Shown piece by piece: positions 6,728 to 16,636 of a stretch of 59,988 nucleotides of DNA; the first letter of the stretch is position 1; each line of letters begins with the position of its first letter. The notes below the pieces were generated by a model. That model worked only from the letters and a program-made list of their open reading frames with translations, searched no databases and was not told the DNA's origin. The stretch comes from Eubacteriales bacterium (GTDB taxonomy: Bacteria > Bacillota > Clostridia > Lachnospirales > Lachnospiraceae). Location of the stretch: assembly GCA_030524135.1 (NCBI GenBank), contig JAUNHA010000008.1:1-59988 (forward strand). The letters run 5' to 3'. The position numbers and the translations under genes were made by a program.

Positions 6728-7921
6728 ATGATCAGTGACAAAATGAAACCGCTTTTAAACAATAACTCCACGATCCGCGCAATGTTCGAAGAGGGCATGC
6801 GTTTAAGAAGCCTTGTGGGAGAGGAAAACGTATTTGATTTTTCGCTTGGGAATCCGAATGTTCCGGCGCCGAAGGCAGTCGGGGAGGCGATCAAGAAACT
6901 GGTGGATACGGTTGACCCGGTTACACTGCACGGCTATATGCCGAACGCAGGCTTTCCGGATGTGCGGGAGAAGCTTGCAGATCATCTTAACAGACTGCAT
7001 GGTACCTCATTTACGGGAAGAAATCTCATCATGACGGTCGGTGCAGCGAGCGGACTCAATATCCTTCTGCGCACACTGCTTAATGAAGGCGATGAAGTGA
7101 TCGTATTTACGCCGTATTTCATGGAGTATGGCGCTTATGCAAGGAATTACGGCGGAACCGTGCGTGAGGTGCCGACTGATCAGAAGACCTTCCTGCCGGA
7201 TATGGAAGCCTTTCGTGCCGCACTGAATGCACGCACGAAGGTCGTGATCATCAACACGCCAAATAATCCGACTGGCGTCATTTACGGAGAAGAAGTGCTG
7301 AAGGCACTCGCGGCAGCGCTAAAGGAGACGGAAGAAAAATACGGAACAGATATCGTCCTGCTTTCTGATGAGCCGTACCGTGAGCTTGCTTATGACGGCA
7401 CTCCCGTACCGTATGTGACGAAGTTTTATCACAACACCATTGTCTGCTACTCCTATTCAAAATCTCTCTCCCTCGCAGGAGAGCGTATCGGCTATCTGCT
7501 GATCCCGGATGAAGTGACGGATGCGCAGACGGTCATTGATGCGACCATTATCGCAAACCGTACAAGCGGTATGGTAAATGCGCCGGCACTCATGCAGAAG
7601 ACGGTTGCCGAGGTGGCGGATACGGATATCAGCGGGACTGTTTCCTATTATGACAGAAACCGCACATATCTTTATGATCATCTGACGCGGCTTGGATTTG
7701 ACTGCGTATACCCGGCAGGCGCGTTTTATCTCTGGATGAAGGCGCCGATCGAGGAGAAGGCGTTTGTGGAGCTGTGCAAAAAGCACTATGTGCTTGTCGT
7801 ACCGGGTTCATCATTCTCCGGTCCGGGCTGTGTGCGCATTGCCTACTGCGTATCCTACGAGCGTCTGTGCGGATCCATCCGCGCATGGGAGGAGATCGCA
7901 TCAGAAGTTTTTGCAAAATAA
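6728..7921 (+). CDS. Class I/II pyridoxal-phosphate aminotransferase (AspC/aromatic aminotransferase-like)
   Basis: A 397-aa fold-type I aminotransferase. Visible features are the substrate-side LGNPNVPAP, the cofactor-binding NTPNNPTG, DEPYRELAY with the Asp that holds the pyridine nitrogen, and SKSLSLAGERIGY containing the Schiff-base Lys at about residue 245. It begins behind AGGAGGT, has its own promoter, and lies directly before the attenuator of the aro operon. That position suggests it may perform the last transamination in Phe/Tyr synthesis, but the sequence alone cannot separate this from an aspartate or broad-specificity enzyme. Confidence 0.9.
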   Translation: MISDKMKPLLNNNSTIRAMFEEGMRLRSLVGEENVFDFSLGNPNVPAPKAVGEAIKKLVDTVDPVTLHGYMPNAGFPDVREKLADHLNRLHGTSFTGRNLIMTVGAASGLNILLRTLLNEGDEVIVFTPYFMEYGAYARNYGGTVREVPTDQKTFLPDMEAFRAALNARTKVVIINTPNNPTGVIYGEEVLKALAAALKETEEKYGTDIVLLSDEPYRELAYDGTPVPYVTKFYHNTIVCYSYSKSLSLAGERIGYLLIPDEVTDAQTVIDATIIANRTSGMVNAPALMQKTVAEVADTDISGTVSYYDRNRTYLYDHLTRLGFDCVYPAGAFYLWMKAPIEEKAFVELCKKHYVLVVPGSSFSGPGCVRIAYCVSYERLCGSIRAWEEIASEVFAK

Positions 7922-7932
7922 CAAAAAAACAC

Positions 7933-7961
7933 TTTACAGCGCTAAAATCTTGTGTTATGAT
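7933..7961 (+). promoter_or_regulatory. Promoter of the aro operon
   Basis: TTTACA (7933-7938), an exact 17-nt spacer and TATGAT (7956-7961) with a TG extension just upstream. Transcription should start near 7968, giving a leader of about 218 nt before aroF that contains the leader peptide and the attenuator. Confidence 0.75.
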
Positions 7962-7990
7962 ACAGCCTAAGAATTTGATTGGAGCATGAC

Positions 7991-8083
7991 ATGAGCAAAA
8001 TTGTAAATGCAGCAGCATATTACTTTTATTTTTACTTTACCTTTACAAACGGTAAGGTTTGTTCGTGTTTTGCTGCATATTAA
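7991..8083 (+). CDS. Phe/Tyr-rich leader peptide of the aro operon attenuator (30 aa)
   Basis: A 30-codon gene starting with ATG behind TTGGAG (7979-7984). Residues 10-18 read YYFYFYFTF, and the peptide holds five Tyr and five Phe in total, far above chance. It ends in AAY at the stop 8081-8083, inside the second segment of the attenuator. The first gene under its control makes DAHP, the precursor of Phe and Tyr, and tyrA and pheA are in the same operon, so the codon content matches the end products. The peptide itself probably has no function beyond ribosome stalling. Confidence 0.8.
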   Translation: MSKIVNAAAYYFYFYFTFTNGKVCSCFAAY

Positions 8084-8108
8084 AGACTCAAGCATTTTTC
8101 GTATACTG

Positions 8109-8144
8109 AGGCTTCGCGGGAAAACACCTGCGGAGCCTTTTTTT
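8109..8144 (+). terminator. Attenuator terminator before aroF
   Basis: A 12-bp stem (8109-8120 with 8127-8138, two wobble pairs) closes a 6-nt loop and is followed by a run of T to 8144. It lies 41 nt before the aroF start and 25 nt after the leader peptide stop, so it must be read through for the operon to be expressed. Confidence 0.85.
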
Positions 8145-8185
8145 ACGCCATCGAAACCAAAAAACCAAGCTGGAGGAAATGACCC

Positions 8186-9205
8186 ATGATACTCGTATTA
8201 AAGGAAAGCGCAAAAAAAGCAGAAGTAGATAATCTTATCACCTGGCTTCATGAACAGGGGCTCGATACACACCTTAGCAACGGTAAATATCAGACGATCC
8301 TCGGACTTGTCGGAGATACCTCTGTCGTAGATGAGGATCTGCTTTCAGGACTTGAGTTCGTAGAATCCGTAAAGCGTATCCGTGAACCGTTCAAGAACGC
8401 AAACCGTAAATTCCATCCGGATGATACGGTCATCGATATCTGCGGAAGCAAGCTTGGCGGTGAACACTTCCAGGTAATTGCTGGTCCGTGCTCTGTCGAA
8501 TCCGAGGAGCAGATCTGCACGATTGCTGAGGAAGTGAAAAAAGCAGGCGCAACAATGCTCCGCGGCGGCGCGTTCAAGCCGCGTACCTCCCCTTATGCAT
8601 TCCAGGGAATGCGCGCCGAGGGACTGAGACTGCTCCTTGAGGCAAAGAAAAAGACCGGACTTCCGATCGTGACCGAGATTATGTCCGCAAATCATCTGCC
8701 GCTGTTCGATGACGTTGACGTAATTCAGGTAGGCGCGAGAAACATGCAGAACTTCGAGCTTCTGAAGGAGCTTGGACATCTGAGAAAACCGATTCTTTTA
8801 AAGCGCGGTCTTGCAAATACCATACAGGAGCTCCTTATGAGCGCGGAGTATATCATGGCGGGCGGCAACGAGCAGGTCATTCTCTGCGAGCGCGGAATCA
8901 GAACCTTCGAAACCTATACGAGAAACACGCTTGATCTTTCTGCGATCCCCGTGATCAAGGAGCTGTCGCATCTTCCCGTCATCGTCGATCCGAGCCATGC
9001 GACCGGTATTGCGCGTATGGTTCGCCCGATGGCTCTGGCGGCGGCTGCAGCGGGAGCGGACGGACTGATCATCGAGGTACACAACGATCCGCCGCATGCC
9101 AAGTGCGACGGCCCGCAGTCCATCACGCCGGATGCGTTCGCATCTCTTACAGAGGAGCTGAACCGTATTCTTCCGGTCGTAAATAAGAAGCAGATCGGAG
9201 AATAA
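8186..9205 (+). CDS. aroF: 3-deoxy-7-phosphoheptulonate (DAHP) synthase, type I-beta
   Basis: A 339-aa enzyme that condenses phosphoenolpyruvate and erythrose 4-phosphate, the entry step of the shikimate pathway. An N-terminal ferredoxin-like regulatory domain (about 1-70; opening MILVLKESAKKAEVDNLI) is followed by the KDPG-aldolase-like barrel with AGPCSVES, GGAFKPRTSPYAFQG, KRGLANTIQE and DPSHATG. The N-terminal domain is the allosteric part in this subfamily, so feedback by Tyr or Phe is likely. First gene of the operon, behind the attenuator; tyrA starts 3 nt after its stop. Confidence 0.96.
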   Translation: MILVLKESAKKAEVDNLITWLHEQGLDTHLSNGKYQTILGLVGDTSVVDEDLLSGLEFVESVKRIREPFKNANRKFHPDDTVIDICGSKLGGEHFQVIAGPCSVESEEQICTIAEEVKKAGATMLRGGAFKPRTSPYAFQGMRAEGLRLLLEAKKKTGLPIVTEIMSANHLPLFDDVDVIQVGARNMQNFELLKELGHLRKPILLKRGLANTIQELLMSAEYIMAGGNEQVILCERGIRTFETYTRNTLDLSAIPVIKELSHLPVIVDPSHATGIARMVRPMALAAAAAGADGLIIEVHNDPPHAKCDGPQSITPDAFASLTEELNRILPVVNKKQIGE

Positions 9206-9208
9206 GAT

Positions 9209-10051
9209 ATGCAGATCGGCGTAGTCGGCCTGGGTCTGATCGGCGGATCCATGGCAAAGGCAATTAAAAAATACACTTCACACAGCGTTTTTGGCTGTGA
9301 TATGAATGAGGCCGTCCTTTCACAGGCGCTTGCCGACGGAAGCATTGACGGGCTTCTTACGGATGATGCGGTCTCAGACTGCGATATGCTGCTTGCCGCA
9401 CTTTATCCGGCGGCGGTCGTTTCTTACATACAGGAACACCTCGAACGGTTTTCTGCGGGTACGACCATTGTGGATCTCTGCGGCGTAAAGCGCGCGGTTA
9501 TGGAGCCGGTCGGGAAGCTTGCGCTTCCAGAGGGAGTGACCTACATAGGCGGACATCCCATGGCCGGTATGGAAAAAAGCGGCTACGCCAATGCAAAAGC
9601 AGAACTTTTTCAGGGCGCGTCCATGATCCTTGTACCGCAGGATGAAAAAAACACCGCCTTTTATGAAGCGGAGGAGTTTTTCCTTTCCCTTGGATTTGGA
9701 AGAGTCAAGGTCACGACGGCGCAGGAGCACGACCGGGTGATCGCGTTTACCTCACAGCTTGCACACGTTGTGTCGAGCGCCTATGTGCTGAGCCCGACCT
9801 CACTCGAACACTATGGATTTTCGGCGGGAAGCTATAAGGATATGACGCGTGTGGCAAGGCTCAATGAAACGATGTGGACGGAACTCTTCCTGGACAACCG
9901 TGAAGCACTTTCGGAAGAGCTCGACGGCATCATCGAACGTCTTTCCTTTTACCGGGAGGTGATCGCTGACGGCGACCGGGAAGCGCTTTTTGCAAAGCTC
10001 AGAGAGGGAAGAGAACGCAAGGAAGGAATTGACAGCTATGAGAACAGTTAA
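9209..10051 (+). CDS. tyrA: Prephenate dehydrogenase
   Basis: A 280-aa NAD(P)-dependent enzyme converting prephenate to 4-hydroxyphenylpyruvate for tyrosine. It opens with the Rossmann motif GVVGLGLIGGSMA and carries GGHPMAGMEKSG, the substrate-region His typical of TyrA, and QEHDRVIAFTSQLAH (second half). It is about 90 aa shorter than Bacillus TyrA because there is no C-terminal ACT domain, so direct Tyr feedback through ACT is not expected. Its end overlaps aroB by 14 nt. Confidence 0.93.
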   Translation: MQIGVVGLGLIGGSMAKAIKKYTSHSVFGCDMNEAVLSQALADGSIDGLLTDDAVSDCDMLLAALYPAAVVSYIQEHLERFSAGTTIVDLCGVKRAVMEPVGKLALPEGVTYIGGHPMAGMEKSGYANAKAELFQGASMILVPQDEKNTAFYEAEEFFLSLGFGRVKVTTAQEHDRVIAFTSQLAHVVSSAYVLSPTSLEHYGFSAGSYKDMTRVARLNETMWTELFLDNREALSEELDGIIERLSFYREVIADGDREALFAKLREGRERKEGIDSYENS

Positions 10052-11129
10052 GGTAGACGCGGGGAAAAGCTATGAAGTGCTGATCGGAAACGGGCTGCTT
10101 CCCGACACGGGAGCTCTCGTAAAGAAAGCTGTTCCCGGTGCAAAAAAAGCGGCTGTGATCACGGATGATATCGTGAATGATCTGTATGAAAAAACGGTAT
10201 CGGCTTCCTTAAGCTCCGCCGGCTTTGAGGTATGCAGTTTTGTTTTCCCGAACGGAGAGGCTTCAAAGAATGCGGCAACCTACATCAATATGCTCAATTT
10301 TCTTGCGGAAAACCGCCTTACGCGTACGGATGTCGTGATCGCGCTCGGCGGCGGCGTGACGGGAGACATGGCAGGCTTTGCGGCAGCGACCTATTTACGG
10401 GGAATCCGCTTCGTCCAGATCCCTACGACGCTGCTTGCGGCAGTGGATTCCTCCGTAGGCGGAAAGACCGGTATGGATCTTCCGGCGGGAAAAAACCTGG
10501 CCGGCGCCTTCTGGCAGCCGTCTCTTGTGATCTGTGACTGCAAGACGCTCGACACGCTGACACCGGAGATTTTCGCAGACGGGGTAGCGGAATCCGTCAA
10601 ATACGGAATTCTTGCATCGCGGCCGCTGTTTGAGCTCTTTGAGAGAGGCGATGTGAGGGAACGGCTTCCTGAAATGATCGAGGAATGCGTCTCCATCAAA
10701 CGTGATGTTGTCATGGAAGATGAATTCGACAACGGAAAAAGACAGCTTCTGAATCTTGGACATACGATCGGACATGCGATCGAGAAAAAAAGCGAGTTTG
10801 GAATCACGCACGGCCACGCGGTCGCGATCGGAACCGTCATTGCAGCCAATATTGCCGTAAGTCTCGGTATTCTGGCGGCGGAGGATGCCGAACGCATCCG
10901 GATGACGCTGTCGCGGCAGTCGCTTCCGACGGATACGGACTATGATCCGAAGGAGCTTGCGCAGATCGCGCTTTCGGATAAAAAACGCAGGGGCGATACC
11001 ATTACGCTTATTCTGCCGGAACAGATCGGAAGCTGCAGGCTGTACAAGGTGCCCGTTTCAGAGCTTTGCGGGCTTACAGAGCGGGGAATCAGGCGTATGC
11101 ACGATGTGCGTTCCGGAAGAAAGCAGTAA
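10038..11129 (+). CDS. aroB: 3-dehydroquinate synthase
   Basis: A 363-aa enzyme that cyclises DAHP to 3-dehydroquinate with NAD and a divalent metal. The ATG at 10038 is chosen for AAGGAAGGAA about 10 nt upstream and because MRTVKVDAGKSYEVLIGNG matches the AroB N-terminus; it lies inside the end of tyrA. Key segments are ALGGGVTGDMAGFAAATYLRG, DSSVGGKTG and the metal ligands in GVAESVKYG (Glu), LGHTIGHA (His) and HGHAVAIG (His). Length and motifs are normal for the family. Confidence 0.96.
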   Translation: MRTVKVDAGKSYEVLIGNGLLPDTGALVKKAVPGAKKAAVITDDIVNDLYEKTVSASLSSAGFEVCSFVFPNGEASKNAATYINMLNFLAENRLTRTDVVIALGGGVTGDMAGFAAATYLRGIRFVQIPTTLLAAVDSSVGGKTGMDLPAGKNLAGAFWQPSLVICDCKTLDTLTPEIFADGVAESVKYGILASRPLFELFERGDVRERLPEMIEECVSIKRDVVMEDEFDNGKRQLLNLGHTIGHAIEKKSEFGITHGHAVAIGTVIAANIAVSLGILAAEDAERIRMTLSRQSLPTDTDYDPKELAQIALSDKKRRGDTITLILPEQIGSCRLYKVPVSELCGLTERGIRRMHDVRSGRKQ

Positions 11130-11148: not shown

Positions 11149-12405
11149 ATGGATATCGAAATACAGCCGCAGGCCTTACGGGGAACAGTTGAGGCGGTCT
11201 CATCAAAATCAGACGTACACCGCGCGCTGATCTGCGCGGCGCTCTCTGACCGGAAAACGGAGATTTCATGCAATCTGATGTCAAAGGACATCGAGGCGAC
11301 GGCACGCTGTCTGAACGCCGCGGGTGCCGGTATCGTTTATGAAAAAGCAGCCGGAAAACTGCTTGTTTCCCCTGTCGGAAGCAGTGCCCGGGAGGGCATG
11401 CGCGGGGACGACAGGGAGGAGGAGCTTTTCTGCGGCGAGAGCGGATCGACGCTCCGGTTTCTGATCCCGGTCATGGCAGCCCTTGGAAAGCCGGTCTGTT
11501 TTACCGGGGCAGGAGAGCTTCCGAACAGGCCGCTGTCAGCGCTTTTGTCGGTTCTTTCCGCGCATGGAATGGAGTTTGACGGGGAGAAACTTCCCCTCCG
11601 TATGCGGGGAAGGCTTGAACCGGGCGTTTATAGGCTTCCCGGCAATATCAGTTCCCAGTATATCACCGGATTGTTGCTTGCGTTTCCCCTGATGGAAGGG
11701 GCATCTGAGATCAGGCTTCTGACAGAACTGCAGTCGGCTGCCTACGTGGATATGACGCTTGATACGATGTCGCGTTTTGGAATAAACATTGACAGAACGG
11801 AAAATGGGTTCTACTATACATCCGGTACCTACCGGTCCCCGGAGCAGTATGCTGCGGACGGCGACTGGTCAAACGCCGCATTCTGGCTGTGTGCGGATCA
11901 TTTGCCGGGAAACGCGCTCGATGTCCGGGGGCTGCGCGGGCTTTCTGTGCAGGGAGACAGGGCGGTAGCAGAGATTTTAAAAAAGCATTTCCATAAGGAA
12001 CATGCAGAAAATACCCGCACGATTGACGTATCTGAAATTCCTGATCTGACGCCGGCGCTTGCCGCGCTTGCGGTCTGTACGCCGGGTACGACGGAATTTG
12101 TGAATGCAGAGCGGCTTCGTATTAAGGAGTGTGACCGCATCAGCGCGCTGCATGAACTGGCAGAAGCGCTGGGTGCCGGGGCTTCGGAGACGGCCTCGAG
12201 CCTTATCATTCATGGAAATGCGCGACCGGAGGGCGGCTGCAGCATAGACAGCCACAATGACCACCGGATCGCCATGGCGGCGGCGATCGCAGCCTCTGCC
12301 TGCAGGAATAACGTTATCATACGCGGGGCACAGGCGGTAGAAAAATCCTATCCGCATTTTTTCGAGGATTACAGGAAACTTGGAGGAAAAGCAGATGTCA
12401 TCTGA
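11149..12405 (+). CDS. aroA: 3-phosphoshikimate 1-carboxyvinyltransferase (EPSP synthase)
   Basis: A 418-aa enzyme transferring enolpyruvyl from PEP to shikimate 3-phosphate. Recognisable are SSKSDVHRALI (Lys, Ser and Arg of the substrate site, though the usual Pro-Gly before Lys is replaced), CGESGSTLRFLIPV, the SSQYITGLLLAFPL stretch, IKECDRI and NDHRIAMA. The start at 11149 follows TAGAGGAG; a longer frame begins inside aroB but lacks support. CGESGSTLRF is the form seen in clostridial enzymes rather than the Escherichia NAGTAMRP form. The end overlaps aroC by 11 nt. Confidence 0.94.
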   Translation: MDIEIQPQALRGTVEAVSSKSDVHRALICAALSDRKTEISCNLMSKDIEATARCLNAAGAGIVYEKAAGKLLVSPVGSSAREGMRGDDREEELFCGESGSTLRFLIPVMAALGKPVCFTGAGELPNRPLSALLSVLSAHGMEFDGEKLPLRMRGRLEPGVYRLPGNISSQYITGLLLAFPLMEGASEIRLLTELQSAAYVDMTLDTMSRFGINIDRTENGFYYTSGTYRSPEQYAADGDWSNAAFWLCADHLPGNALDVRGLRGLSVQGDRAVAEILKKHFHKEHAENTRTIDVSEIPDLTPALAALAVCTPGTTEFVNAERLRIKECDRISALHELAEALGAGASETASSLIIHGNARPEGGCSIDSHNDHRIAMAAAIAASACRNNVIIRGAQAVEKSYPHFFEDYRKLGGKADVI

Positions 12406-13537
12406 GTACGGAAAAAATATCAGGGTATCCATTTTCGGACAATCCCATTCGGAAGGGATCGGCGTCGTTATTGACGGCATCCCTGCAGGGGAACGCTTTG
12501 ACATGAAAAGAGTTCACGCTTTTATGAGGCGGCGCTCTGCCGTCGGAAAGGATTATTCGACGATGCGCAAGGAGGCGGATGAGCCGCATATTCTTTCCGG
12601 TCTTCTGGAAGACGGAGATTCCTATGTAAGCTGCGGTGCGCCGGTCTGCGCAGTGATCTATAATGCGGATACCCGCTCAAAGGATTACAGCAACTTAAAA
12701 GATGTGCCGAGACCGTCCCATGCGGACTATCCGGCTGCCGTCAAATACCGCGGGTTTCATGACATCCGCGGCGGCGGACATTTTTCCGGACGTCTGACGG
12801 CTCCGCTCTGCTTTGCAGGTGCGCTCTGCATCCAGATGCTCGAAAAGAGAGGGATTCATGTGGGTGCGCATATTGCAGCGATACACGGAGTTTTGGACCA
12901 TCCTTACGACGCGGTCAATCTTACGGCGGAGGAGGTTCATGCAGCCGGAGAAAAGGCTTTTCCGGTGAATGATGACCTTTCCGGCGAACGCATGCTTTCA
13001 GAGATCGGGGCGGCAAAAGCCGCAGTAGATTCTGTGGGCGGCATCGTGGAATGCGGCGTGACCGGACTTCCCTGCGGCCTTGGAGAACCGATGTTTGAGG
13101 GCGCGGAAAATAAAATCGCGCAGATCGTATTCGGAATTCCTGCGGTAAAAGGCATCGAATTCGGCGCAGGATTTGAAATGGCTGCCCGTTTTGGAAGCGA
13201 AAACAATGATCCGTTTGAGATGAAAAACGGCAGGGTTTCATCGAAAACAAATCATGCGGGCGGAATTCTCGGCGGTATTACCACAGGCATGCCGCTTATC
13301 TTCCGGGCTGCATTTAAGCCGACGGCATCCATTGCGAGAGCGCAGCAGTCCGTCTCCCTGTCCCGGAAAGAGGACGAGACGCTCGTCATTCACGGACGTC
13401 ATGATCCCTGCATCGTGCCGCGCGCGGTGCCCTGCGTAGAGGCAGCTGCGGCGATCGCCGTATATGACCTTTTGCGCGATGCGCTCAGCGAGGGATTTCT
13501 GTCTGATGAACAACAGCAGACAGAAACCGCGCAGTAA
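12395..13537 (+). CDS. aroC: Chorismate synthase
   Basis: A 380-aa FMN-dependent lyase producing chorismate, the last common step. GQSHSEGIGVVIDGIPAG near the N-terminus, RPSHADYPAAVKY, DIRGGGHFSGRLTA and GGITTGMPLIFRAAFKP are signature segments of AroC. The ATG at 12395 has GGAGGAAAA just upstream; both site and start lie within the end of aroA, so the two genes are translationally coupled. Normal length. Confidence 0.97.
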   Translation: MSSEYGKNIRVSIFGQSHSEGIGVVIDGIPAGERFDMKRVHAFMRRRSAVGKDYSTMRKEADEPHILSGLLEDGDSYVSCGAPVCAVIYNADTRSKDYSNLKDVPRPSHADYPAAVKYRGFHDIRGGGHFSGRLTAPLCFAGALCIQMLEKRGIHVGAHIAAIHGVLDHPYDAVNLTAEEVHAAGEKAFPVNDDLSGERMLSEIGAAKAAVDSVGGIVECGVTGLPCGLGEPMFEGAENKIAQIVFGIPAVKGIEFGAGFEMAARFGSENNDPFEMKNGRVSSKTNHAGGILGGITTGMPLIFRAAFKPTASIARAQQSVSLSRKEDETLVIHGRHDPCIVPRAVPCVEAAAAIAVYDLLRDALSEGFLSDEQQQTETAQ

Positions 13538-13611: not shown

Positions 13612-14754
13612 ATGGATTTACAGGAAGCAAGAAATCAGATCAATGCTGTGGATGAACAGCTGGTTTCACTTTTCAAAGAACGTATGGAGCTCTCTAAGGA
13701 GATCGGAGAGTTCAAGAAGGCAAATGGAATGCCGGTATTTGACAGAAGCCGTGAACGCGATGTCTTAAATCATGTCTGCGACCTCGCAGGTAAGGAATTT
13801 GAGAACTATGTACACGTACTTTACAATACGCTTCTGGATGTGAGCCGTGCTTACCAGAAACAGATCGTCGGAAGCCATTCGACGCTTGTACCGCGTATCC
13901 GGGAAGCAATGAAAACCACAGATCCGGTATTCCCGGGCCGTGCGCTTGTTGCATGTCAGGGTGTGGAAGGCGCATATTCCCAGAACGCCTGTGACAAGCT
14001 GTTCTCACTTCCGAGCATCATGTATTTCAACAGCTTCCAGGGTGTATTCCAGGCTGTGGAGAAGGGCTTCTGCAAGTATGGCATCCTGCCGATCGAAAAC
14101 AGTACGGCGGGTTCCGTCAATGAGGTTTACGATCTCATGAAAAAGCATAACTTTAGCATCGTACGCAGCATCAAGCTTCGCATCGATCACAATCTTCTTG
14201 CGAAGAAGGGAACGAAGCTGTCCGATATTAAGGAGATTTTTTCACACCAGCAGGCACTTGACCAGTGCAGTGAATTCCTGAAGAGCCTCAAGGATGTGAA
14301 GATTACCGTATGTGAAAATACGGCGGCTGCGGCAAAGTTCGTAGCGGAGAGCGACCGTACGGATATCGCAGCGATCTCCTCCAAGAACTGCGCAGGGCTT
14401 TACAGCCTGTCAGTGGTTTCCAATACAGTGCAGAACAATGACAACAACTACACGCGTTTCATCTGCATTTCCAAGGAAATGGAGATCTACCCGGGTGCTG
14501 ACAAGATCAGCCTGATGTTCTCCATTTCCCATAAGCCGGGCGCGCTCTACAACGTTGTATCCCGCTTCTCAAGCCTTGGACTTAACCTGACGAAGCTTGA
14601 GAGCCGTCCGATGCCGGGCAAGGATTTTGAGTTCATGTTCTATTTTGACCTGAACGCAAGCATCTATGATGAGAAGGTGCTTTCCCTGCTTGGAGAATTT
14701 GACGACGAGTTTGACCAGTTTACCTTCCTCGGCGCGTATTCCGAAATGATCTGA
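13612..14754 (+). CDS. pheA: Bifunctional chorismate mutase / prephenate dehydratase (P-protein)
   Basis: A 380-aa protein with three parts: a chorismate mutase of the AroQ type (about 1-85; RNQINAVDEQLVSLFKERM, with RSRERDVL further on), prephenate dehydratase (about 105-285; GVEGAYSQNA, PIENSTAGSVNEVYDL, and NNYTRF with the catalytic Thr), and a C-terminal ACT domain (about 295-375; SISHKPGALYNVVSRF, then LESRPMP). The ESRP segment is the Phe-binding site in this family, so feedback inhibition by Phe is expected, in contrast to the ACT-less TyrA here. AGGAGAT precedes the start. Confidence 0.95.
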   Translation: MDLQEARNQINAVDEQLVSLFKERMELSKEIGEFKKANGMPVFDRSRERDVLNHVCDLAGKEFENYVHVLYNTLLDVSRAYQKQIVGSHSTLVPRIREAMKTTDPVFPGRALVACQGVEGAYSQNACDKLFSLPSIMYFNSFQGVFQAVEKGFCKYGILPIENSTAGSVNEVYDLMKKHNFSIVRSIKLRIDHNLLAKKGTKLSDIKEIFSHQQALDQCSEFLKSLKDVKITVCENTAAAAKFVAESDRTDIAAISSKNCAGLYSLSVVSNTVQNNDNNYTRFICISKEMEIYPGADKISLMFSISHKPGALYNVVSRFSSLGLNLTKLESRPMPGKDFEFMFYFDLNASIYDEKVLSLLGEFDDEFDQFTFLGAYSEMI

Positions 14755-14838: not shown

Positions 14839-16173
14839 ATGCAGCAGAATGCAGACAGCAAAAAAGAATACGGACTGCTGGGAGAAAAGCTTTCACACAG
14901 TTTTTCTCCCATGATCCACAATAAGCTCGGGAATGGAAATTACGGACTGTTCGCAGTGGAGAAGACAGGGCTTGATGCCTTTATGAAGGAGCGCGGCTTT
15001 TCCGCGATCAATGTGACAATTCCCTATAAGCAGGCGGTGATGCCTTATCTTGCGCGGATCTCAGATACTGCGCGGGAGATCGGAAGCGTCAATACGATCG
15101 TGAAGGAAGCGGACGGAAGCCTTTCAGGCTATAATACCGATTTTTCAGGCATGCTTTATGCCATGCATGCGGCCGGGATTTCCTGTTCGGGGAAAAAGGT
15201 GCTGATTCTTGGCAGCGGCGGCACATCCCTGACAGCAAGAGCAGCGGCAAGGCGGAGCGGAGCGGCCGAAATCGTCGTTATATCCCGCAAGGGGGAGAAT
15301 AATTATGAAAACATCTCCAGTCACGCAGACGCGGAAGTGATCATCAATACGACTCCGGTCGGTATGTATCCGAACAATGGCGCGGCGCTGATCTCTCTTA
15401 AGAATTTTCCGCGGTGCGGCGGCGTATTCGACGTGATCTATAATCCGTTCCTGACACCGCTCCTGAAGGAGGCAAAGGCACTGGGAATACCGTATCAGAA
15501 CGGCCTCCCGATGCTTGTTGCACAGGCAAAGTATGCGCATGATCTGTTTTTTGGAAGGGTGACTGAGGAGTATGTACCGGAGACTGGTTCCGGGAAAGAA
15601 TGCGGGATTTCTGAGAGGAGCGAAACAGCTTCGGAAAGTGCAGTCATTGATGCAATCACGGCTTCCCTTTACGCGGAGCTTTCCAATATCGTACTGATCG
15701 GCATGCCTTCCGCAGGAAAGACCAGCGTCGGAAAAGCGCTGTCGGAGCTTCTTAACCGGCCGCTTGTTGATCTGGATACGGCGCTTGAGGAGACCTACGG
15801 ACAAAAGATCCCTGATATTTTTGCGAAGGAAGGCGAGGCAGGATTTCGGGATAAGGAAAGCGTGATCGCTGCGAGGTACGGGAAAGAACGCGGTCAGATC
15901 ATCGCCTGCGGCGGAGGTGTCGTGCTGCGGGAAGAAAATGCGGAGGTGCTTAAGCAGAACGGTTTTCTGGTATTTCTGGAGCGGGATCTCAGATGCCTTT
16001 CCACGGACGGAAGACCTTTATCGAAGGACTATGAGACGCTCTGCGCGATGTATGAAAAACGCCTGCCGCTTTACCGGAAATATGCGAACTGTACGGTCCC
16101 GAATGACGACAGTACAGCGCATGCCGCTGAGCGGATCCGGGATGCATTTGCTGCCTGGACCGGACAAAAGTAA
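14839..16173 (+). CDS. Shikimate dehydrogenase - shikimate kinase fusion
   Basis: A 444-aa fusion covering two shikimate-pathway steps. Residues about 1-255 are AroE: LLGEKLSHSFSPMIHNK binds shikimate, VTIPYKQAV contains the catalytic Lys, GYNTDFSGM the catalytic Asp region, and LGSGGTSLTARAAA the nucleotide loop. A charged Ser/Glu linker (about 255-275) leads to AroK (about 278-444) with P-loop GMPSAGKTSVGK, DLDTALEE and GGGVVLREEN. The two active sites act on consecutive steps (dehydroshikimate to shikimate to its 3-phosphate). Both domains look complete. RBS AGAAGGAG is upstream. Confidence 0.95.
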   Translation: MQQNADSKKEYGLLGEKLSHSFSPMIHNKLGNGNYGLFAVEKTGLDAFMKERGFSAINVTIPYKQAVMPYLARISDTAREIGSVNTIVKEADGSLSGYNTDFSGMLYAMHAAGISCSGKKVLILGSGGTSLTARAAARRSGAAEIVVISRKGENNYENISSHADAEVIINTTPVGMYPNNGAALISLKNFPRCGGVFDVIYNPFLTPLLKEAKALGIPYQNGLPMLVAQAKYAHDLFFGRVTEEYVPETGSGKECGISERSETASESAVIDAITASLYAELSNIVLIGMPSAGKTSVGKALSELLNRPLVDLDTALEETYGQKIPDIFAKEGEAGFRDKESVIAARYGKERGQIIACGGGVVLREENAEVLKQNGFLVFLERDLRCLSTDGRPLSKDYETLCAMYEKRLPLYRKYANCTVPNDDSTAHAAERIRDAFAAWTGQK

Positions 16174-16192
16174 ATCGAAAAGAGGAAGCGTT

Positions 16193-16636
16193 ATGAAATT
16201 TCTGATCATCAACGGACCGAACCTGAACATGTTGGGAATCCGCGAAAAGAATATTTACGGAAGTGAGACTTATGAGGGACTTCTTGCTTATATCCGTAAA
16301 ATCTGCGAACAGGAAGGCATCGAAGCCGAGTTTTACCAGTCGAATCATGAGGGAGATATCGTAGACCGCATTCAGGCGGCTTATGGGAATATTGACGGCA
16401 TCGTCATCAATCCGGCGGCATATACCCATACGAGTGTTGCGATTCTGGATGCGCTGAAGGCCGTGTCAATTCCAGCCTGTGAGGTGCATCTCTCCAATAT
16501 ATACGAACGCGAGGAATTCAGACATCATTCGTTTATCTCTGCAGCCTGTATCAAAACCTTTTACGGAATGGGGTTTGAAGGCTATAAGGAAGCGGTGCTG
16601 TGCCTGAAAAAATATATGGAAGAACAGTCTGGCTGA
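16193..16636 (+). CDS. aroQ: 3-dehydroquinate dehydratase, type II
   Basis: A 147-aa enzyme converting 3-dehydroquinate to 3-dehydroshikimate. It starts MKFLIINGPNLNMLGIREK, the type II signature with the catalytic Arg loop and then Tyr in NIYG; NPAAYTHTSVAI and EVHLSNIYEREEFRHHS complete the site. The ATG at 16193 follows AGAGGAAG; an upstream open frame belongs to a shadow of aroE-aroK. Last gene of the operon, ending 25 nt from a convergent LysR gene without a visible terminator. Confidence 0.96.
   Translation: MKFLIINGPNLNMLGIREKNIYGSETYEGLLAYIRKICEQEGIEAEFYQSNHEGDIVDRIQAAYGNIDGIVINPAAYTHTSVAILDALKAVSIPACEVHLSNIYEREEFRHHSFISAACIKTFYGMGFEGYKEAVLCLKKYMEEQSG

Follow-up and report, generated by a model that had tools for sequence, protein, structure and literature searches.

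A putative Phe/Tyr leader-peptide attenuator before the shikimate operon of a Lachnospiraceae bacterium and its occurrence upstream of aroF in Clostridia

Introduction

Attenuation of transcription by a translated leader peptide is a classical control mechanism. One of its representatives, the Phe_leader (RF01859) of enterobacterial background, combines a Phe-rich leader peptide with terminator/antiterminator logic. The T-box (RF00230), which senses uncharged tRNA and requires no leader peptide, stands before aroF in other Clostridia. Within the Firmicutes, His leader peptides have been described (PMC2965389, PMC9413887), as has a Leu leader peptide of the Staphylococcus aureus ilv-leu genes, which has mutant support (PMC5794164). 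The nearest published description found, to judge from the accessible part of the text, is the uORFC-13-1 motif, with 24 representatives in Acholeplasma and environmental DNA located upstream of aroF, where a short ORF with at least one Phe codon adjoins an intrinsic terminator and for which attenuation has been proposed (PMC8632094).

Here, a candidate leader upstream of aroF is compared with these systems, using a window of 59,988 nucleotides (the whole stretch of DNA analyzed, from a Lachnospiraceae genome, G000). No Rfam family reaches its cut-off in a scan of the whole window, and a low-threshold scan of the leader gives six matches, all sub-threshold. Of these, Phe_leader has the lowest E-value (1.9), its 17.2 bits falling short of the cut-off of 55; the window leader would thus work in a Phe_leader-like manner, yet falls outside that Rfam family, from which it also differs in having Tyr codons and in its predicted control of a whole shikimate operon. 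NCBIfam gave no match for the 23 of 24 leader peptides scanned, and Pfam, for the same number, gave no leader family but one weak match of a single leader to an unrelated viral family. The Firmicute His and Leu leaders share the mechanism proposed here but, as far as their accessible descriptions go, concern other amino acids, genes and lineages, and the Leu case is backed by mutants, whereas the case made here is drawn from sequence (PMC2965389, PMC9413887, PMC5794164). The uORFC-13-1 motif resembles the window leader in its position and in its short ORF with Phe codon(s) beside a terminator, and is set apart by description only, since the text available mentions neither a Tyr/Phe run, nor a shikimate operon, nor Clostridia (PMC8632094). 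The view of an earlier note on this DNA, that the mechanism is classical in proteobacteria while Firmicutes generally use T-boxes or TRAP for aromatic genes, needs qualifying, as the His, Leu and uORFC-13-1 leaders had already been described in the sources available; searches of the open-licence PMC literature yielded no account of a clostridial aroF preceded by a Phe/Tyr leader.

Results

Organization of the Leader Region and the Shikimate Operon

The leader region follows an aminotransferase gene (6728-7921), and its short ORF lies between a promoter-like site and a terminator located about 40 bases before aroF (Table 1). Re-inspection of the sequence bore out the promoter and the 30-codon Phe/Tyr peptide seen in the earlier note, as well as its coordinates for the alternating segments. 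The stop codon of the peptide, which the note had placed inside segment 2, actually lies a few bases past it, at 8081-8083; the modelled footprint of a ribosome at this stop covers 8064-8093, which takes in segment 2 completely and leaves the terminator free. Positions 8071-8078 are the exact reverse complement of 8007-8014, and 8065-8076 (GTGTTTTGCTGC) can pair with 8116-8127 (GCGGGAAAACAC), with 11 of the 12 positions matched. The fold of the leader RNA lies 6.9 standard deviations below those of its own shuffles. Taken alone, promoter matches (2 found, 1.5 expected) and terminator matches (1 found, 1.0 expected) do not exceed what chance predicts for a stretch of 1 kb, and the support for both comes from conservation; the promoter-like site is kept in the genus alignment, as judged by eye.

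Table 1. Features of the aroF leader region and of the operon behind it (positions in the window).
Feature	Positions	Strand	Basis
Promoter-like site TTTACA-17-TATGAT, TG before the -10	7933..7961	+	10 of 12 consensus positions matched
Shine-Dalgarno (SD) GGAG of the leader	7981..7984	+	Sequence
Leader ORF MSKIVNAAAYYFYFYFTFTNGKVCSCFAAY	7991..8083	+	ATG 7991, TAA 8083; 30 codons and stop; counterparts in relatives
Segment 1 ATGCAGCAGCATA	8007..8019	+	Pairing with 8071-8078; block kept in genus alignment
Control codons 10-18 (Tyr10-Phe18), Tyr/Phe and one Thr	8018..8044	+	Leader reading frame
Small hairpin ACTTTACC/GGTAAGGT across the last control codons	8034..8058	+	Minimum free energy fold; conservation by eye
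Segment 2	8065..8078	+	Pairing tests and genus alignment
Segment 3, within terminator 5' arm and loop, complementary to segment 2	8116..8127	+	Pairing tests
Intrinsic terminator, stem 8108-8139 of 13 pairs, then T-run	8108..8144	+	Terminator search; counterparts in relatives
aroF, DAHP synthase	8186..9205	+	NCBIfam NF006421, TIGR01361
tyrA, prephenate dehydrogenase	9209..10051	+	Family scores under curated cut-offs
aroB (inferred start)	10038..11129	+	TIGR01357
aroA (inferred start)	11149..12405	+	TIGR01356
aroC (inferred start)	12395..13537	+	TIGR00033
pheA, chorismate mutase-prephenate dehydratase	13612..14754	+	TIGR01805 above cut-off for mutase part
aroE/aroK fusion, single ORF	14839..16173	+	Family scores under curated cut-offs
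aroQ, type II dehydroquinase	16190..16636	+	TIGR01088

All eight ORFs from aroF to aroQ are encoded on one strand. The dehydratase part of PheA is matched by its models at 1e-60 or better, yet under their cut-offs, and in the aroE/aroK fusion the shikimate dehydrogenase models match residues 7-243 and the shikimate kinase models residues 280-441. The gene context was counted in the 37 leader loci among L034-L113 with at least 9 kb downstream. Genes found behind aroF were tyrA (28 loci), aroB (28), aroA (29), aroC (31), pheA (29), aroE (25) and aroQ (21), the aroK query yielding no separate matches. The complete order tyrA-aroB-aroA-aroC-pheA-aroE-aroQ occurs in 15 of these loci and none of these genes in 4. 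With tyrA in 28 of the 37 and the full order in 15, a leader ahead of a shikimate operon is common, which agrees with the whole-operon context that had been proposed for the window.

Recurrence of the Leader Upstream of aroF

In a genus sample of 25 genomes (20 with AroF and 5 without a match), a leader arranged in this way lies ahead of aroF in 16 of the 17 loci examined besides the window, being weak in L015 and absent from L027 (L032 and L033 stand outside this count). A first sample of 110 aroF loci consisted of 30 read from 61 genomes and the best 80 from a named genome collection; 69 of these have, ahead of aroF, an ORF in which 7 or more of 12 codons stand for Phe/Tyr, versus 12 of 2200 dinucleotide shuffles. 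Among the best 80 named loci plus the window, and considering genes with free upstream space, such an ORF precedes 40 of 53 aroF genes and 4 of 266 other genes. The first leader set (n = 82) comprised 77 leaders in which 6 or more of 12 codons stand for Phe/Tyr, together with L015, L019, L049, L066 and L075, which were added by eye.

A class-wide survey, restricted to the matches listed in 196 genomes, revealed a Phe/Tyr-rich ORF before aroF in 60 of 128 loci. These 128 were taken from 150 listed places; two (L002, L014) already belonged to the first set, and the 20 left out included partial loci, loci near contig ends and second copies. Cultured relatives that carry the leader include Anaerotignum neopropionicum (L107), Sporobacter termitidis (L070) and Angelakisella massiliensis (L035). 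The class-survey leaders span 24 family codes by hand count, or 25 if L237 is counted, a GTG frame without a terminator that is probably a false leader. Across the survey, AroF identity lies between about 72 and 52%. In the upstream regions of relatives, which the earlier note had singled out as the place to look, the leader codons are kept and the segments are kept and covary, as seen in the genus alignment, the class survey and the partner-swap test described below.

On a FastTree phylogeny of 131 AroF proteins, leader presence requires at least 26 changes, 12 of them forced by well-supported branches, a count in which T-box loci, and perhaps leaders that were overlooked, fall under the state "none". 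Shuffled states require 31.6 changes on average, and 5 of 500 shuffles are as low as 26; leader presence is only weakly clustered on the tree.

Beyond the Clostridia, plasmid pTS2 of a Treponema saccharophilum isolate carries an aroF preceded by a Phe/Tyr-rich ORF (6 in 12 codons) and by a terminator recognized by eye. This ORF (MKNTFRTTGEYYSSTTLAYSYYAGYFCF..., at L249:8390-8520) has no other shikimate gene adjoining in the annotation. Leaders also occur in bins named Treponema (L073, L093), Lentisphaerae (L056, L081), Victivallales (L112) and Thermoguttaceae (L063), names that are possibly wrong, and are absent at the aroF of the other Treponema- or Spirochaetia-named bins L039, L043, L053 and L094, to which the same caution applies. 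A leader was looked for, and not found, at the aroF carried on a plasmid record of Collinsella aerofaciens.

Covariation of the Alternative Pairings

Behind 57 of the 60 class-set leaders lies a terminator with an energy of -10 kcal/mol or lower, at a median of 35 bases from the stop codon; shuffling of the downstream region leaves 2 of 180. The pairing tests covered 75 of the 82 first-set leaders, those with a usable terminator call; of the seven others, L028, L067, L080 and L090 had no good terminator, and in L041, L047 and L066 it was called across the control codons. Complementarity of segment 2 to the arm and loop of the terminator attains p<=0.05 in 54 of the 75 first-set and 42 of the 57 class-set leaders, while taken singly the remaining 21 and 15, respectively, are not above shuffles at that level.

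The strongest evidence for the predicted alternative pairings is a partner-swap test, in which every segment 2 was paired with the terminator arms of all species, and every segment 1 with the segment 2 of all species, identical leaders being counted once. Over 74 loci, the 2:3 pairing averages -17.96 kcal/mol with the own partner versus -13.07 with those of others, and the 1:2 pairing -18.03 versus -13.08, none of 20000 permutations being as low in either case. The own-partner advantage for the pairings of segment 2 amounts to about 14-15 standard deviations, and an excess of -4.8 shrinks to values between -0.3 and -0.5 once segment 2 is shuffled. Tested in the same way, again with identical leaders counted once, the codon region against segment 2 gives z -12.8 (73 loci).

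Of the 44 loci that share an anchor, 34-41 form pairs at positions 7 and 9-12 of the antiterminator, where a single position shows as many as six pair types. This anchor was picked by best score, which favors the observed pairing over shuffles; the 74-locus partner-swap re-optimizes all partners and is free of that bias. In L005-L007, segment 2 lacks one T and segment 3 at the same time lacks one A, as seen by eye. The mutually exclusive 1:2, 2:3 and 3:4 pairings are kept by covariation across leader loci.

Control Codons and the Leader Peptide

Both Phe and Tyr codons occur in all 75 analyzed control windows (291 and 285 in total), which had been selected for the sum of Phe and Tyr and not for the presence of both. 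This lends support to the joint sensing of Phe and Tyr that had been proposed from the window sequence. By eye, all differences among the control codons of L002-L007 are synonymous; L008-L013 have Phe and Tyr exchanged.

A second group of leaders (L019, L023, L045, L100, L179, L185 and others) shares a longer common peptide motif, approximately SWGYFYFSAGYFCCKK. Many of its members carry a Trp codon.

In TnaC the nascent chain itself stops the ribosome, and an arrest peptide of this kind, perhaps with a bound aromatic ligand, might halt the ribosome here in place of codon starvation. Conservation beyond Phe/Tyr in the motif of the second group would be in keeping with such a role. Yet outside the Phe/Tyr run the leaders align poorly (mean column identity 28% over 24 leaders), Phe and Tyr are exchanged among relatives, and segment 2 is conserved as RNA, its frame being read FAA in some species and VCC in others. 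Arrest by the nascent chain is accordingly judged improbable, and starvation at the control codons is retained as the preferred reading.

Modelled Switching and Pairing of the Leader Start Region

Switching was modelled in the 75 loci with ribosome footprints on transcripts reaching the terminator loop, as the mean number of 2:3 pairs. For a ribosome stalled at the control codons, 14.8 pairs are predicted if the 5' end is masked as well and 13.1 if only the footprint is masked; a ribosome at the stop leaves 4.3 and the absence of a ribosome 7.7. In this model, the stall with 5' mask exceeds the stop state in 72 of 75 loci and the opposite is seen in 2. After shuffling of segment 2 the stalled state still yields 9.0 pairs, so part of the modelled switch is trivial; at least 10 pairs are reached by 70 of the 75 real leaders versus 37% of shuffles. 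For the full window leader at equilibrium, the terminator has a probability of 0.98-0.99 in each modelled state, which implies that a switch must act during transcription.

The window (L002) and its relatives L003 and L004 complicate this picture. With only the stalled footprint masked, they give 3.5-5.9 pairs and no switch (in the window, a 2:3 probability of 0.00), because the free SD/start region captures segment 2, whereas with the 5' tail masked they reach 14.5-16.5 modelled pairs. Positions 7977-8005 of the window, which hold the SD and start, can pair with 8065-8083, and the same is true in its two nearest relatives. Masking of the 5' end could come from a second, initiating ribosome behind the stalled one.

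These pairings raise the alternative that access of the first ribosome, gated by pairing of segment 2 with the leader ribosome binding site, decides the outcome in place of starvation codons. In partner-swap over 73 loci the SD/start region does prefer its own segment 2 (z -4.2, 0 of 10000 permutations; largest in L002, with an excess above 4 kcal/mol in 15 of the 73), and the region further upstream shows no own-partner excess (z -1.0). The signal of the codon region is far stronger, though, and such a gate would leave the Phe/Tyr codons without explanation. As a replacement for attenuation it thus seems a poor candidate, but it may act in addition to it: pairing of the SD/start region with segment 2 may be a second lock that shuts an untranslated leader. 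In the clade of the window, this pairing is the least expected feature of the system.

T-boxes and Tryptophan Synthesis

Before aroF, a T-box scores above the Rfam cut-off in 8 of 12 motif-picked loci of Clostridia, and in 0 of 8 leader loci. The T-box was found in the place of the leader in L021, L173, L174, L177, L220, L235, L236 and L238. The host genome contains 7 T-box matches, 2 of them above cut-off and none on the contig of the window; the genes adjoining these matches, by eye, are presumably thrS and transporters. One T-box-like match below cut-off (L118, G000:C42:34244-34515) is followed by a gene that resembles those for TrpX-type ABC substrate-binding proteins, and which would fit Trp import.

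A T-box or other aptamer binding tRNA or a ligand directly, with the ORF being incidental, could be suspected from the T-boxes of other Clostridia, but the T-box score before the window aroF is below the gathering cut-off, as is every other Rfam family in the window, and the eight leader loci examined have none before aroF; this explanation is very hard to sustain. Equally remote is a plain terminator beside an ORF that arose by chance or serves as a decoy, or an attenuator under the control of an RNA-binding protein: in its favor, promoter and terminator matches taken alone are at chance level, but ORF, terminator and both alternative pairings co-occur across 24 family codes.

In the host genome (92% complete), neither an anthranilate synthase component I domain (PF04715) nor trpC (PF00218) was found, and the host is thus probably unable to make Trp. 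The window leader has no Trp codon. Among 78 genomes, a Trp codon occurs in the leader in 14 of 20 with trpC versus 19 of 58 without (Fisher p 0.008), with W labels set by hand, kinship ignored and the W of G116 lying outside the control run. A tracking of trpC by the Trp codons of leaders is a lead only.

Discussion

The leader of the window is very probably an attenuator of transcription through which the ribosome senses charged tRNA-Phe and tRNA-Tyr, as the earlier note had read it; conserved codons, covarying segments, operon context and the terminator after nearly all class-set leaders argue for this. Its parts, their conservation, the covarying alternative pairings and the geometry are established by comparison of sequences, from which we infer the stall, the readthrough and their tie to tRNA charging.

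The leader would be transcribed from the promoter and translated as the RNA emerges. If Phe or Tyr is scarce, the ribosome would stall in codons 10-18 and mask segment 1, leaving segment 2 to pair with segment 3; this would spoil the terminator, and RNA polymerase would continue into aroF-tyrA-aroB-aroA-aroC-pheA-aroE/K-aroQ. If both are abundant, the ribosome would reach the stop just beyond segment 2 and cover that segment, the terminator would form and the transcript would end near 8144. In an untranslated leader, 1:2 pairing would form, and the terminator would win as well.

On the comparisons made here, the Phe/Tyr leader before aroF appears to be a widespread, new example of classical ribosome-mediated attenuation. 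A wider proposal is possible, although we lean slightly against it as a whole: dual Phe/Tyr leader attenuators would form one family and be the commonest aroF control in the class Clostridia, ahead of T-boxes, with which they would have been repeatedly swapped; they would have been carried with aroF into other phyla (the Treponema isolate, the Lentisphaerae bins); their codons would follow the pathway of the host, with Trp codons where Trp is made; and the clade of the window would have added a second lock, between segment 2 and the leader ribosome binding site.

With this leader, the step by which Clostridia enter aromatic amino acid synthesis gains a testable control. The occurrence of leader peptides and T-boxes before one and the same gene in related lineages offers a natural system for the replacement of one tRNA sensor by another, and the covarying leader set could seed an Rfam-type model, letting peptides that are now unannotated be named.
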